Below are positions 5,683 to 18,011 of a stretch of 21,055 bases of DNA, piece after piece. Below the pieces are notes generated by a model. It worked only from the letters and a program-made list of their open reading frames with translations, was not told the origin of the DNA and made no database searches. The stretch is from a virus: positions 1-21,055 of IMG/VR virus record IMGVR_UViG_3300025327_000951; one strand, 5' to 3'. A program made the translations under genes and the position numbers. Every line of letters starts with the position of its first letter. The stretch's first letter is position 1.

Positions 5683-5888
5683 CACCGGAACGAGTACGAG
5701 AGGCAGTCGGGGCACTGATGGCGCTGGCCTCGACGGCTGCCGTCGTCTACCTGGCCGTGCTGGCGAGCAGCGAGCCCGCGTTGGGGGCTCTCGTAGCGAT
5801 CAGCGCCGCCAGCGTCGGCTACTATCTGCGGGGCCGCGTCCAAGCACCAGATCAGAAACGTTCTGAGCCGCCACAAGGACCTCTTTGA
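5679..5888 (+). CDS. Holin-like small membrane protein with a foreign C-terminal tail (69 aa)
   Basis: ATG 5679 has a strong GAGGAGG ribosome site. Two hydrophobic spans are visible, about residues 11-29 (ALMALASTAAVVYLAVLAS) and 35-51 (LGALVAISAASVGYYLRG), separated by a short turn. This is the layout of class II-type holins. The last 14 codons (from 5847) are a 41-bp sequence nearly identical to part of the ATPase gene at 14495-14535, read here in another frame as PDQKRSEPPQGPL. The C-terminus therefore seems to have been replaced by recombination. The TGA (5886-5888) overlaps the next ATG. The holin role is inferred from size, spans and context. Confidence 0.6.
   Translation: MTPERVREAVGALMALASTAAVVYLAVLASSEPALGALVAISAASVGYYLRGRVQAPDQKRSEPPQGPL
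5847..5887 (+). repeat. 41-bp repeat, copy at the end of the holin-like gene
   Basis: It matches 14495-14535 with a single mismatch. Here it is read in a different frame and supplies the C-terminus and most of the stop codon of the holin-like gene, and it ends at the start of the next gene. The pattern suggests insertion or recombination of a helicase-gene fragment between distant parts of the genome. Confidence 0.95.
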
Positions 5889-6665: not shown

Positions 6666-6742
6666 GGTGCGTTCGTCCAGTGGCCCAGGACACCTCCCTG
6701 TCAAGGAGGAGATCGCCGGTTCGAGTCCGGTACGCACCGCCA
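6666..6742 (+). tRNA. tRNA-Asp, anticodon GUC
   Basis: A full cloverleaf can be drawn. The acceptor stem is GGTGCGT (6666-6672) with ACGCACC (6732-6738). The D stem is GTCC/GGAC. The anticodon stem CCTCC/GGAGG holds the loop CTGTCAA with anticodon GTC at 6700-6702. The T stem GCCGG/CCGGT holds the loop TTCGAGT. The discriminator is G and CCA is encoded at 6740-6742. GAC is a common codon in this GC-rich phage, so the tRNA may supplement host supply. No integrase or flanking repeat was seen to mark it as an attachment site. Confidence 0.93.
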
Positions 6743-13130: not shown

Positions 13131-13355
13131 ATGGACGACGTATTCATCGCAACCCTGTTATCCACGCTGCGGGAGCTAGCTCGGTCGCCGGGGCTGCAGG
13201 GCACCCAGGAGCGCCTGGAGCTGGAGCGTATGCTCGCGGCCTGCCTTCTGGAGGAGGCGCTTGTCGCGCTGCATCCCCTGGAGCGGGTAAGCGCGCTGGC
13301 TGTGACGGCGGTGGAGCTGGTGCGGGAGGCGAGGCTGCTGGTGGCACGGCTGTAA
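13131..13355 (+). CDS. Small helical protein (74 aa)
   Basis: ATG 13131 lies two bases after the previous stop, with GAGGAGG at 13115-13121 as a ribosome site. The product MDDVFIATLLSTLRELARSP is almost wholly alpha-helical and rich in Leu, Ala and Glu (LELERMLAACLLEEALVAL), so it may be a small helical-bundle or adaptor protein. I recognise no family. It sits just upstream of the ATPase gene, with a three-base gap. Confidence 0.55.
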   Translation: MDDVFIATLLSTLRELARSPGLQGTQERLELERMLAACLLEEALVALHPLERVSALAVTAVELVREARLLVARL

Positions 13356-13358
13356 CCC

Positions 13359-14600
13359 GTGGACCCGCCAGAGATCAGGCGCGAGGGGCCCGACTACATC
13401 GCCAGTTGGCCAGGGGCCATGTTCCGCTTCTCCCGGCTTCATGACTCGCGGGAGGACCTGGTCGCACTGCTCAACATCTCTCTGGATGGCTTCCCCGGCC
13501 GACCTGACGGGGAGCTGTATGAGGGCAAGATCGTACTCACAGGAAGCCGCTCGAAATCAGATGCTGTCAAGGCGTGCAAAGATCGCGTAGGCGAAACCGA
13601 CTGGTACCCGCTACTGGAGAAGGCATGTCGGACCGTGCGATTGGCGTTCGAGGAAGGAGCACCACCGACACTGCTCCAACCCAGGAAACCGAGCGAGTCT
13701 CCTGGGTACATGATGACTCCCCTGATACGCGAGAAGGATCACACCATGTGGTACGCCCGCGGCGGCTCTGGCAAGAGTCTCCTCGCGTTGGCCACCTGCG
13801 TAGCGGTAACTACCGGGGTTGAGCACTTGGGACTGCCAACGCTCACCAGTGGCGGGGCCGCGCTGTACCTCGATTTCGAGGACGAGAACGACATCCACGA
13901 GGAGCGCCTGGAGCTAATCTGTTCGGGACACCAGCATGAGCCGGCGCGCGTGATCCACAAGGCGGCCGATGCCCCTCTCACGAGTATTGCTGATTCCGTC
14001 GCCCGCTTAGCGTCGAAGGAAGACATCCGGTTCCTGGTCGTAGACTCGGCCGCCCTCGCCTGCGGGGGCGACCCCGAGAAGGCAGACACGGCTACGGCGT
14101 ACTACAGGGCTCTACGCACGACAGGGATACCTACCACCCTCACCCTGGCCCACCATGCCAAGAAGGACGACGAATGGCCATTCGGGTCGATCTTCTGGTG
14201 GAATACCATGCGTAGCCTCTGGTTCCTGAAGGCCGGAGAGAGAGAGGACGAATCTATCATTGATCTGGGCATCATTCACCGGAAGGTTAACCGGGGGAAG
14301 CTCCAGAGGACCTTTGGCCTGCGCGTCCAATTCGATGAGGAGTCCGTCCGCATCGGCTATCACGACCCCGGCCGAATCTACGAGATGAGAAAGCACCTGA
14401 CCCATAGAGACGCTTTGATTGCCTGCCTCAGGGATGCCCCTGGGGCTCGCCTCAGCAGGTTGGCTGCCCAGGAGGCATCTAAGCTGAACGCTGCCCAGAT
14501 CAGAAACGTTCTAAGCCGCCACAAGGACCTCTTTGGCACCGAGCCCGGCCGTGAGGAGGGCGATGTTTGGCTCGTGCCTTCCTGGGCCAGAGATGGGTAG
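13359..14600 (+). CDS. RepA-like AAA_25/RecA-fold ATPase, probable replicative helicase (413 aa)
   Basis: GTG 13359 has no clear ribosome site. Walker A is WYARGGSGKSLLAL (K139, S140), with the preceding HTM typical of RepA-like proteins. An acidic ALYLDFEDEND strand follows at 168-177. Walker B is RFLVVDSAA (D229). The sensor-type strand LTLAHHAKKD (261-270) precedes PFGSIFWWNTMRSLWFL, a hallmark of the RepA/AAA_25 hexameric helicase family. Residues about 345-411 look like a winged-helix DNA-binding tail (ALIACLRDAPGARLSRLA, then QIRNVLSRHKDLF). It likely unwinds DNA with the adjacent primase. A 41-bp part of the tail (14495-14535) is repeated at 5847-5887. Confidence 0.82.
   Translation: MDPPEIRREGPDYIASWPGAMFRFSRLHDSREDLVALLNISLDGFPGRPDGELYEGKIVLTGSRSKSDAVKACKDRVGETDWYPLLEKACRTVRLAFEEGAPPTLLQPRKPSESPGYMMTPLIREKDHTMWYARGGSGKSLLALATCVAVTTGVEHLGLPTLTSGGAALYLDFEDENDIHEERLELICSGHQHEPARVIHKAADAPLTSIADSVARLASKEDIRFLVVDSAALACGGDPEKADTATAYYRALRTTGIPTTLTLAHHAKKDDEWPFGSIFWWNTMRSLWFLKAGEREDESIIDLGIIHRKVNRGKLQRTFGLRVQFDEESVRIGYHDPGRIYEMRKHLTHRDALIACLRDAPGARLSRLAAQEASKLNAAQIRNVLSRHKDLFGTEPGREEGDVWLVPSWARDG
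14495..14535 (+). repeat. 41-bp repeat, copy in the ATPase gene
   Basis: The segment starting CCAGATCAGAAACGTTCTAA and ending CCTCTTTG matches 5847-5887 at 40 of 41 positions (A here, G there). Here it encodes part of the winged-helix tail (QIRNVLSRHKDLF), so this is the likely original copy. Weaker similarity continues upstream (GCATCTAAGC at 14475-14484 against GCGTCCAAGC at 5836-5845). Confidence 0.95.
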
Positions 14601-14691
14601 GCGTTGCAAGTTGCAACGCCTGCGACGTTGCTGCGACGGGCGTCGCAAACAGGCGTTGCAACGCGCCCCCCTTTATAGGGGCGTGCGACGC
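14601..14691 (+). promoter_or_regulatory. Dyad-rich intergenic region, possible replication origin or operator cluster
   Basis: The 117-base gap between the ATPase and primase genes is filled with related dyads. GCGTTGCAA-g-TTGCAACGC (14601-14619) is a perfect inverted repeat. TGCGAC-gggc-GTCGCA (14632-14647) is a second. GCGTTGCAACGC (14653-14664) is a 12-bp palindrome, and single GCGACG(C) boxes lie at 14622 and 14685. CGCCCC/GGGGCG flank an A/T-rich CTTTATA (14671-14677), the only A/T-rich patch. Iterated boxes beside replication genes fit an origin or an autoregulatory operator; which one cannot be decided here. Confidence 0.6.
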
Positions 14692-14717
14692 TAAGGAGGT
14701 ATGGGTAGGGAACGGGC

Positions 14718-15503
14718 ATGGGTGATACGCCGATGGACCTTAGGGAGTGTGCCGCGATATTGGTACAACGTGGCTGGTGCCCCATGCCCTTGACCCTGGA
14801 CCTGGCCGGCTTCCCGAAGCGCCCCATCGTGGCGAACTGGACTCACCTGGTAGCGACGGAAGAGGCCGTTGCGGCGTTACCGTGGGAGGGAGCCTCCGGC
14901 CTGGGCATTGTACTGGGACACACCAGCGGCGGCCTAGCCGCTATCGATATCGACGACGTGGGCCTCGGCGGCAAAGTGCTGTCGGCGCTAGGGAGGGATG
15001 GCCCGCGATCTGTCCGCACGATCCGCAAGCGGTGCCACGTCTACGTCCAGGAGGTGGCGCAGCTCTCGCCGTCGCGGGCCTTCACGATTCAATGGGAGGG
15101 CCGGACGGTCCAGGTCGAGCTGAAGGCCGAGGGCACGCAGGTAGCGGCGCCACCGACGCCAGGCTACGAGCTGGTGGGCCGTGGCCCGCCCTATCCATCG
15201 CCCTCACTGGCCCTGGCCTGGAAGTGGCTCTGCGACAAAGTGGGGATCAAGGATGAGAGCAGCGTTGCATCGGCCGGCTTCCCGTCCCCATGGCGTCCGG
15301 AGGTGCCCATCGAGGAGCGGAACAAGAGCGCCTACGTCGAGGCCCACATGCTCCGGCAGGCCCAGATGCCGCTCGACATGGCCTTACGGTACATGGCGCT
15401 GCGCTGGGAGCGAGACTACGCCCAGGGTGCCCAGGACTGGCGCGAGGTGGAGCGGACGATTCGGTCGGCCTACCGTAAGGGCCTGGGGCCCGGGGCGTTC
15501 TGA
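14718..15503 (+). CDS. Prim-pol type DNA primase/polymerase (261 aa)
   Basis: ATG 14718 lies 17 bases after AAGGAGGT; ATG 14733 is an alternative. The N-terminal half fits the bifunctional primase/polymerase domain (PF09250 type): LVQRGWCPMPL at 15-25, KRPIVANWTHL at 34-44, and GLGIVLGHTSGG then LAAIDIDD with catalytic Asp77 and Asp79. A later VELKAEGTQVAAPPTPGY (133-150) matches the conserved third region. The C-terminal 80 residues are helical. It would make primers for phage DNA synthesis, working with the ATPase encoded upstream. Its length is normal for stand-alone phage versions. No separate replicative DNA polymerase is seen in the window. Confidence 0.8.
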   Translation: MGDTPMDLRECAAILVQRGWCPMPLTLDLAGFPKRPIVANWTHLVATEEAVAALPWEGASGLGIVLGHTSGGLAAIDIDDVGLGGKVLSALGRDGPRSVRTIRKRCHVYVQEVAQLSPSRAFTIQWEGRTVQVELKAEGTQVAAPPTPGYELVGRGPPYPSPSLALAWKWLCDKVGIKDESSVASAGFPSPWRPEVPIEERNKSAYVEAHMLRQAQMPLDMALRYMALRWERDYAQGAQDWREVERTIRSAYRKGLGPGAF

Positions 15504-15862
15504 TGGCTGAGTCGTATCCGATGCGCCAGGCTTGCCCTGCCTGTGGCGGCTGGGAGGGCCGAATTGAGCCGAAGGCTGGGCAGCAATGTGTCTATTGCGG
15601 GGCCTGCGGCCGATGGGTCTACAACGCACCGAAGGACGAGACGGACGCGGCGAGGGCTGCGCGGCGGCGCCATCTGGATAGGATGCGGTTCTACAAGCTG
15701 TCTGCGGCCTTCGTCAGCGGCTGGGTCCCGCCCGAGCAGCGTGAGCCATGGCGCTGCGGCATCTGTGGCGGCAGCGTGTACTGGGAGCGCCTGCCGCCGT
15801 GGCCAGCAGAGCGGGTGTGTCAGCGCTGCCACGGAAAACCGGGAGAGGAGAAGCGAGCATGA
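15503..15862 (+). CDS. Double zinc-ribbon protein (119 aa)
   Basis: ATG 15503 overlaps the primase stop (TGATG). The first ribbon is ACPACGGWEGR ... CVYCGACGRWVYNAPK (C11, C14, C29, C32 with C35). 'CGRWVYNAPKDET' resembles the zinc-ribbon part that in other phages is fused to HNH nucleases; the nuclease part is absent here. The second ribbon is WRCGICGGSVYWERL ... RVCQRCHGK (C85, C88, C106, C109). It likely binds DNA or a replication protein. The stop overlaps ATG 15859. Confidence 0.7.
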   Translation: MAESYPMRQACPACGGWEGRIEPKAGQQCVYCGACGRWVYNAPKDETDAARAARRRHLDRMRFYKLSAAFVSGWVPPEQREPWRCGICGGSVYWERLPPWPAERVCQRCHGKPGEEKRA

Positions 15863-16173
15863 CTGAGGCGGAGCTGCTGGCGGCCATCCTGGAGTTAGCG
15901 GCCGCGCGAGGCTGGCGGACCATGCACCAGCGTCCTGCGATGACCGAGCGGGGATGGCGTACCGCCGTGCAGGGCGATGGTGTCGGTTTCCCCGATCTGG
16001 TGCTGGCTGGGCGCCAACGCGTCGAGTTCTGGGAACTGAAGGGCAACCGCGGCCGGCTGACGCTGGAGCAGGAGTGGTGGCGGGATGCGCTGAGCGGGAA
16101 TGTGGGCTATACGTGGAGATGCGTCAGACCGGACGACTGGACCTCGGGCCGCGTCGAGGAGTGGCTGGCGTGA
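15859..16173 (+). CDS. VRR-NUC family nuclease (104 aa)
   Basis: ATG 15859 overlaps the previous stop. The catalytic PD-(D/E)XK layout is clear: GFPDLVLAG with Asp46, then VEFWELKGNRGRLT with Glu59 and Lys61, and QEWWRDAL with Gln71 after it. This is the short stand-alone VRR-NUC form common in phages, related to junction- or flap-processing nucleases. It may process recombination intermediates together with the RecT-like protein. The last codons (EEWLA) are part of a 17-bp motif repeated at two further gene junctions. Confidence 0.85.
   Translation: MTEAELLAAILELAAARGWRTMHQRPAMTERGWRTAVQGDGVGFPDLVLAGRQRVEFWELKGNRGRLTLEQEWWRDALSGNVGYTWRCVRPDDWTSGRVEEWLA
16156..16172 (+). repeat. Junction motif, copy 1 (GAGGAGTGGCTGGCGTG)
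   Basis: This 17-bp motif ends the nuclease gene (encoding EEWLA) and carries a GAGGAG ribosome site with a GTG (16170-16172) eight bases later, which is in frame with the next gene. It differs by one base from the copies at 16535 and 16738. Confidence 0.85.
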
Positions 16174-16552: not shown

Positions 16553-16761
16553 TCACGAAGCTGTCGATGGTCATCCTCGGTGGCCACCGGCTGCGGGGCC
16601 CGTCGCGCCGCGCCGATGTCTGCGCTCGCCGCCGCAAGATCGCGCGGTGGCTGTATTTCGAGCGGCAGTGGACGCAGGAGCGGATCGGGCGGCTCTTCGG
16701 CCGCGACCGGAGCACCGTGGCGCGGTGGCTCTGGCATGAGGGGTGGCTGGCGTGCTCGTGA
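16549..16761 (+). CDS. Small helix-turn-helix protein (70 aa)
   Basis: GTG 16549 is chosen because GAGGGG lies eight bases upstream and it overlaps the mini-ORF stop; GTG 16540 is possible. The segment RRKIARWLYFERQWTQERIG, then RLFGRDRSTVARWLWHEGWL, contains a clear helix-turn-helix (WTQERIGRLFGRDRSTVARW) like those in sigma-70 region 4 and Crp-type proteins. It probably binds DNA as a phage regulator. The end (HEGWLACS) again lies in the repeated 17-bp motif. Confidence 0.65.
   Translation: MITKLSMVILGGHRLRGPSRRADVCARRRKIARWLYFERQWTQERIGRLFGRDRSTVARWLWHEGWLACS
16738..16754 (+). repeat. Junction motif, copy 3 (GAGGGGTGGCTGGCGTG)
   Basis: It is identical to copy 2. It encodes the end of the HTH gene (EGWL) and places a GTG (16752-16754) eight bases after GAGGGG, in frame with the methyltransferase. 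Confidence 0.85.
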
Positions 16762-18011
16762 GCCATGACTTGCCCGGCGGCGTGATCTACGAGGGGCACG
16801 TCCTGGACGCGCTGGCGCAGATGCCGGACGAGTCGGTTCACTGCGTGGTGACGAGCCCGCCGTACTGGGGGCTTCGTGATTATGGGATCGAGGCGCAGGT
16901 CTGGGGCGGGGAGCCGGTATGCGCGCACGAATGGAGTGAGGAGCGGGAGGTTCAGGCGAAGGACCATGAGGGATGGGTCTGGTCTGATGGCGGCGCCCAC
17001 GGCGGGCGGCAAAGCCACTCATGGAACGTGGGCATCGGGACTGCTTGCTCCCGCTGCAGTGCATGGCGCGGCTCGCTCGGCCTGGAACCTACGATTGAGC
17101 TGTATGTCGAGCACATCGTCGAGGTCTTCCGCCAAGTGCGTCGCGTGCTGCGCAAGGATGGGACTCTGTGGCTGAACAAGGGCGACTGCTACGCGGCTGG
17201 GAAGTCTGGGCGTGACGACAACGATGCTGTGAGTCGTGCAAAGTTTGATGCTTATGGCCATGGTGGTGGCATCAAGCCCCAGGCAGCCGGGAATACAGGG
17301 GTCGCCCGCAAGCCACCCAGTGGCCTCAAGCCCAAGGACCTGGTGGGCATGCCATGGCGGGTGGCCTTCGCGCTCCAGGCCGATGGCTGGTACCTGCGCT
17401 CGGACATCATTTGGTGCAAGCCGGCGCCTATGCCGGAGTCGGTAAGAGATCGCCCAACAAAGGCGCACGAGTACTTATTTCTGCTCAGCAAGAGCGAGCG
17501 CTACCACTACGACGCGGAAGCGATCCGGGAGCCGTTTAAAGGGGCGAACAAGCGCTCTGTCTGGACCATTCCTACCGAGCCCTTCCCGAGCGCGCACTTC
17601 GCAACTTTCCCTCAGGTCCTCGTCGAGCCGTGTGTCCTGGCCGGCACCAGCGAGCGGGGCTGCTGCCCGAGCTGCGGTGCGCCGTGGGTGCGGGTAGTGG
17701 AGAGGGAGCATCGGGGAGACCGGGGCAGGCATGTGCCGACCTATGAGGCTGTTGGCGTACTCAACAGACGCATGCATCCCGGCAGCCACCCGACAGCGTG
17801 GAGCGAGACCACCGGCTGGCGCCCATCCTGCCGCTGTGATGCGGGCGAGCCGGTTCTGTGTGTTGTCCTCGACCCCTTCCTGGGCAGTGGTACAACGGCC
17901 TACGTTGCCCACCGGCTCGGCCGACGCTATGTAGGCATAGAGATCAAGGCCGACTACGTGGAGATGGCGAAGAAGCGCCTGGAGGCGCTGCCTGTTGGCA
18001 CGCTCCTGTGA
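16752..18011 (+). CDS. DNA methyltransferase, N6-adenine or N4-cytosine type (419 aa)
   Basis: GTG 16752 is preferred from the conserved junction motif; GTG 16743 or 16758 are also possible. Catalytic motif IV is VTSPPYWGLRDYG (TSPPYW at 34-39) near the N-terminus. The cofactor motif VLDPFLGSGTTAYVAHRLG lies near residue 372, followed by RYVGIEIKADYVEMAKKRLE. Catalytic motif first and cofactor motif last is the beta-class order. A long insert holds the Cys groups CCPSCGAPW and SCRCD, likely a zinc site, as often seen in phage members. No restriction enzyme is adjacent, so it is probably an orphan enzyme protecting phage DNA or marking it. The target site cannot be told. Confidence 0.9.
   Translation: MLVSHDLPGGVIYEGHVLDALAQMPDESVHCVVTSPPYWGLRDYGIEAQVWGGEPVCAHEWSEEREVQAKDHEGWVWSDGGAHGGRQSHSWNVGIGTACSRCSAWRGSLGLEPTIELYVEHIVEVFRQVRRVLRKDGTLWLNKGDCYAAGKSGRDDNDAVSRAKFDAYGHGGGIKPQAAGNTGVARKPPSGLKPKDLVGMPWRVAFALQADGWYLRSDIIWCKPAPMPESVRDRPTKAHEYLFLLSKSERYHYDAEAIREPFKGANKRSVWTIPTEPFPSAHFATFPQVLVEPCVLAGTSERGCCPSCGAPWVRVVEREHRGDRGRHVPTYEAVGVLNRRMHPGSHPTAWSETTGWRPSCRCDAGEPVLCVVLDPFLGSGTTAYVAHRLGRRYVGIEIKADYVEMAKKRLEALPVGTLL

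Follow-up and report, generated by a model that had tools for sequence, protein, structure and literature searches.

The alpha protein of satellite phage P4 is a single TOPRIM-primase/helicase protein acting at the ori iterons. In SaPIs the origin immediately follows rep and is recognised by the C-terminus of Rep, and Cch2 of SCCmec binds repeats behind its own gene, in a region regarded as a putative origin, according to the passages of PMC7581432 devoted to these elements. In pRN1 a stem-loop immediately past the 3' end of a rep gene serves as the origin, and the rep product has a C-terminal winged helix; the IncQ plasmid RSF1010 relies on the helicase RepA, the iteron binder RepC and the primase RepB' with the ssiA/ssiB stem-loops (PMC4234260).

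The DNA analysed here is a stretch of 21,055 nt (the window), positions 1–21,055 of IMG/VR virus record IMGVR_UViG_3300025327_000951, in which word boxes and a palindrome follow a helicase gene. The element resembles the SaPI and Cch2 sites in its location directly downstream of a predicted initiator-helicase gene, its origin role being a proposed one, and in its short repeats, which the C-terminal domain of the helicase (a predicted winged helix in the window) would read; inverted repeats occur in the Cch2 region too (PMC7581432, in the part concerned with Cch2). The SaPI Rep/Cch helicases, however, are DUF927 or D5/Primase_Cterm proteins, whereas the window ATPase and its relatives have only AAA_25 (RecA-like), and the conserved CCCCT-W-AGGGG palindrome is not among the SaPI or Cch2 features described in those passages of PMC7581432.

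With RSF1010 the locus shares a sequence-related helicase of the RepA family, RSF1010 RepA (1g8y) being the best PDB sequence match of the seven-sequence ATPase family profile (E 1.7e-5), as well as the combination of iterons, stem-loops and a dedicated primase. RSF1010 has a separate RepC, whereas box reading in the window is attributed to the predicted winged-helix tail of the helicase itself; no RepC-like Pfam match was found among the window proteins scanned, with several small ORFs outside the scan. Unlike in RSF1010, the site is placed at the 3' end of the helicase gene. The palindrome, the window's counterpart in a comparison with ssi, persists with different primase families. As in pRN1, the site immediately follows the 3' end of a gene for a replication protein with a C-terminal winged helix (predicted in the window), a prim-pol is the partner, and the sequence diverges between relatives while the structure is kept. 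In contrast to pRN1, whose origin is a single 100-b stem-loop lacking iterons and whose SF3 helicase is fused to the prim-pol, the window has word arrays around a short palindrome, an AAA_25 helicase and a separate Prim-Pol, and it does not qualify as a pRN1-type origin. The locus is also reminiscent of P4, where a single phage module supplies primase, helicase and iteron binding, all acting at iterons. The layout of the P4 ori differs from that of the window element; P4 also serves as a contrast in PMC4234260.

Boxes and palindrome between the helicase and Prim-Pol genes

The gene upstream of the element (13359–14600, + strand) encodes a RepA-like helicase/ATPase of 413 aa (Pfam AAA_25, 1.2e-21), the predicted initiator helicase, and the gene downstream of it (14718–15503, + strand) encodes a Prim-Pol (AEP primase-polymerase) of 261 aa (Pfam Prim-Pol, 8.7e-12), proposed to prime at the opened origin. 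The location between a RepA-like ATPase and a prim-pol gene, given in the original prediction, was thus confirmed. Because the AlphaFold2 model of the ATPase obtained from a single sequence was poor (pLDDT 37.8), it was dropped and a seven-sequence alignment was used instead (pLDDT 80.6, pTM 0.74). In this model residues 349–407 follow the order helix-helix-helix-strand-strand (H-H-H-E-E) of a winged helix. The winged-helix tail previously suggested for the ATPase is therefore borne out as a structural prediction; it spans residues 349–411 (14403–14591, + strand) and is the proposed reader of the boxes.

Several other features were noticed in the window. A near-identical 41-bp repeat (97.6%), absent from the relative G003, is present at 5847–5887, as the end of a small membrane-protein-like ORF, and, in a different frame, at 14495–14535, where it codes for the part of the ATPase tail predicted to hold the recognition helix (QIRNVLSRHKDLF). 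A Shine-Dalgarno-like AAGGAGG (14693–14699) is close to an out-of-frame ATG at 14701 and has an unusual spacing to the Prim-Pol start at 14718, so a leader ORF or another true Prim-Pol start is possible. A tRNA-Asp gene (anticodon GTC) was identified at 6666–6742 and a CcrM-like N6_N4_Mtase DNA methylase, far under the equivalog cut-off, at 16743–18011.

The whole element, the proposed origin core (14599–14691), has its left edge inside the ATPase stop codon. Its words are best written as eight TGCRACG boxes, five on the + and three on the − strand, seven of them left and one right of the central palindrome, i.e., multiple repeats around a central segment. The leftmost dyad, AGGCGTTGCAA-G-TTGCAACGCCT (14599–14621), has 11-bp arms with boxes at 14602–14608 (−) and 14612–14618 (+). 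It is followed by a TGCGACG box at 14621–14627 (+), the dyad TGCGACG-GG-CGTCGCA at 14632–14647 (boxes 14632–14638 (+) and 14641–14647 (−)) and the palindrome GCGTTGCAACGC at 14653–14664 (boxes 14654–14660 (−) and 14657–14663 (+)). Right of the central palindrome, the box TGCGACGC (14684–14691, +) is the inverted partner of GCGTCGCA at 14640–14647. All the perfect dyads of related words claimed originally are present where they were placed, and the exact word GCGTTGCAA has four copies in the window, all within the 64 bases 14601–14664.

The central palindrome CGCCCCCCTTTATAGGGGCG (14664–14683) has the layout CGCCCC-CCTTTATA-GGGGCG, with the arms CGCCCC at 14664–14669 and GGGGCG at 14678–14683; its core is CCCCTTTATAGGGG (14668–14681), present a single time in the known 34.8 kb of the phage, and within the element it is the palindrome that lineages have in common. 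An A/T-rich patch framed by CGCCCC/GGGGCG had been described here; the frame was found, and the patch shrinks to TTTATA, the palindrome centre.

In the 170 bases from the ATPase stop, 23 pairs of 7-mers are complementary, compared with a mean of 2.6 after shuffling. Neither the 1000 shuffles nor the 1022 other segments of 170 bases include one that scores as high. The element folds as single-stranded DNA with z = −5.8 and is the most self-complementary 120-b stretch in 34.8 kb (the window and the overlapping contig G001). The equivalent stretch of G003 also ranks top among 120-b stretches.

Counterparts in uncultured and cultured phages

The nearest relative, G003 (locus L008), shows 87% identity to the window in Prim-Pol and 62% in the ATPase, and between the two genes it carries an element of nine GTTGCG/CGCAAC words and CCCCCCTATTATAGGGGGG. 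The DNA identity between the window and L008 is 0.81–0.89 at the ATPase gene start, 0.5–0.7 in the ATPase core, 0.39–0.54 over the winged-helix tail and the element and 0.7–0.9 in Prim-Pol, the tail and element being the most diverged stretch with better conserved flanks (0.8–0.9). Such low identity indicates that both diverged together while the layout was kept, as would be expected of an initiator and its site changing together. The much better conservation of the ATPase gene start (81–89% DNA in window 13281–13640) than of the ATPase core suggests a mosaic exchange. The G003 contig appears circularly permuted, as the matches to window 14761–15823 and 15865–16173 (L019–L021) are at its opposite ends, and a tandem GCCGCCGCCAGGG-type repeat was noticed at 40180–40300 of its reverse complement.

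More distant relatives were mostly identified by protein alone, and the helicase-stop and element layout was found in six uncultured lineages. A blind DNA-pattern scan of viral contigs gave 33 loci, most of which were chance matches with no helicase; a helicase was present only in L039 and three known contigs. The AAA_25 homologue of L039 (27.5% identity, 4e-32) ends just before the motif. Its contig, G004, has two copies of the helicase (77% alike), and behind each copy arrays of CGTAGC words surround CCCCTATAAGGGG or CCCCTATAGGGG. An AEP-TOTE primase-like gene precedes the helicase, and the element is followed by a small ORF with no Pfam match. The two loci of this 131-kb viral contig (L066 and L067, at 24–26 kb and 99–102 kb) are about 75 kb apart and form two diverged copies of one block, in which the primase and helicase genes are followed by the origin-like element and further genes; G004 possibly carries two origins.

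A protein-only scan added L072/L073, L074 and L076 (identity 27–34%), in which a C-rich/G-rich palindrome is located right behind the helicase stop. CGCAACC words are clear in L074. L072 and L076 have weak word arrays that, taken alone, are not significant. The first box is a few bases from the helicase stop in the window, L008, L066, L067 and L074. No significant relative emerged when window or G004 proteins were compared with annotated phages and plasmids, and scans of genome contigs likewise gave none.

A tblastn search with the helicases of L074, L072 and then Kc237 led to 21 cultured-phage loci, picked by us for host diversity, so that the positive fraction is no census. The full layout was detected in phages of Roseobacter, Burkholderia and Kosakonia, with variants in those of Escherichia, Alteromonas, Bacillus and Streptococcus. 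The phages with this full layout are CRP-811 (ACTACAAA words, CCCTTTAGGG), BcepGomr (AAAATAA words, CCCCTTTAGGGG) and Kc237 (GGTAAC words, CCCCTAAAGGGG). In IME_EC2 and XX1924 the word arrays come with CTCT-W-AGAG palindromes, and BCJA1c, Javan470 and Javan59 have word arrays with other palindromes, so that the layout fits but the CCCCT-AGGGG core does not. The element was not seen in 13 of the 21 loci (Squash, RubyRalph, Polewnik, PSKM, ATCEA85, Feastonyeet, Soto, 19E33.1, KcrB, phi674, MakoManhole, Serendipitous and C130_2). A second, longer palindrome, CCCCCCCTCTAAAGAGGGGGGG, was observed past the first in Kc237 (L084), at +165 after the helicase stop.

All ten helicases checked, including those of CRP-811, BcepGomr, Kc237, IME_EC2, XX1924 and BCJA1c, match AAA_25. 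The primase types are not shared (Prim-Pol in the window and L008, AEP-TOTE in G004, a TOPRIM fusion in XX1924 and PriCT_2 in BCJA1c), and hence the site goes with the helicase. YGYRRC was considered as a core common to all words; it fits the window, L008, G004 and L074 and fails in XX1924, and for this reason a universal word core is not claimed.

The palindrome core (CCCCT-W-AGGGG) is common to the lineages, while the words differ; the central TATA is not kept (TTTA, TAAA or TAC in relatives). Since the first examples had already been seen when the motif was refined, its counts are descriptive and not pre-registered: C3+T[AT]1-6AG3+ occurs once in each of the genomes tested (34.8 kb of the window phage, 44.9 kb and 32.6 kb) and is absent from 156,553 b of background. 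In 9 of 28 loci it lies within 200 b after the helicase stop, and it has no other occurrence in the 28 loci. Five of the nine motif-positive loci (L074, L076, CRP-811, BcepGomr and Kc237) were reached by protein alone. In every locus with the strict motif the palindrome starts 35–126 bases past the helicase stop. In nine whole records CCCCTN{1,5}AGGGG was found in nine places, eight of them at an element, and seven of the nine records have it at an element. An inverted pair of words nested about the palindrome stands clearly above background in only about half of the loci. Relatives that carry the element share its layout and not its words.

Alternative roles of the element

An operator of the primase promoter had been put forward as an equal alternative. 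A repressor or activator would then bind the boxes, with TTTATA as the -10 sequence; clustered dyads are typical of operators, and the element is directly upstream of Prim-Pol, with a Shine-Dalgarno-like AAGGAGG. However, the element keeps to the 3' end of the helicase gene even where another gene lies downstream or the primase is of another family, which makes such a role unlikely. In G004 it does not stay upstream of the primase gene; it remains behind the helicase, with the primase upstream and no recognised primase as the next gene. In the contigs of L072, L074 and L076, with no detectable PF09250 Prim-Pol, it is still located behind the helicase. Moreover, no sigma-70-like promoter was found in 14300–15000, and it is the central TATA that varies in relatives and the palindrome that is kept.

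The location directly 3' of a gene, the strong folding (its z-score as DNA) and the T residues after the BcepGomr hairpin would also suit a transcription terminator or an RNA hairpin closing the helicase operon. Such a role is scarcely probable, as no T-run is present past the window palindrome, a terminator scan of 14300–15000 was empty, no Rfam family was found at the element, and the arrays of lineage-specific words would be left unexplained. The comparative data link the element to the helicase and not to replication itself, so the helicase tail might use the site for partition, copy-number control or recombination rather than for the start of replication. This is very unlikely considering that the neighbours are replication proteins, that none of the proteins scanned was recognisable as a partition ATPase, and that the studied analogues with the same geometry are origins or putative origins (PMC4234260 and the relevant passages of PMC7581432).

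The element as a proposed origin of replication

Taken as a replication origin, which it probably is, the element would most likely have the helicase encoded directly upstream as its initiator. The C-terminal winged helix of this helicase would read the TGCRACG boxes, and one or two helicase rings would assemble around the CCCCT-TTAT-AGGGG palindrome, which would open or extrude a hairpin. The helicase would then load onto the exposed strand, where the first primer would be made by Prim-Pol. If the studied analogues are a guide, the helicase would dock at the boxes, and the part of the palindrome would be in opening, loading or priming. The boxes, the palindrome, their position, the gene families and the recurrence in distant phages are read from the sequences themselves, and the winged helix is predicted by the model; from these we infer box binding, opening, loading, priming and origin activity. 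The findings would best be explained by an origin next to its Rep gene that is bound by the tail of the helicase itself and works like SaPI rep/ori, except that the helicase is of another family and a palindrome is added.

The suggestion of an origin with tail-bound boxes gains comparative support from the recurrence of the layout behind AAA_25 genes in very distant phages and from the predicted winged helix. A skew minimum had been named as a further sign of an origin and was not found at the element in near-complete G003 or in three cultured relatives; in the cultured relatives the minimum falls at the gene-strand switch. GC skew follows gene orientation and is therefore uninformative for the element.

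The helicase family, the site at the helicase 3' end, the inverted word arrays and the palindrome are constant, and the words, the downstream gene and the primase family vary. We tentatively suggest, at slightly less than an even chance, a distinct class of phage origins on AAA_25/RepA-like helicases, in which lineage-specific inverted arrays, read by the helicase tail, would surround the conserved CCCCT-W-AGGGG palindrome as a common helicase-loading/melting structure across very different hosts and primase families. No description of this layout with AAA_25 helicases was found in the open-access literature, which weakly supports its novelty.

The shared palindrome raises the question of what reads it when the primases differ, and the diverged tail/word pairs are a natural set for learning how a winged helix chooses its boxes. 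Few phage origins have been mapped, and GC skew fails where phage genes mostly run one way. The signature of an AAA_25 helicase stop, an inverted word array and a CCCCT-W-AGGGG palindrome would allow origins to be predicted from sequence in cultured as well as uncultured phages.
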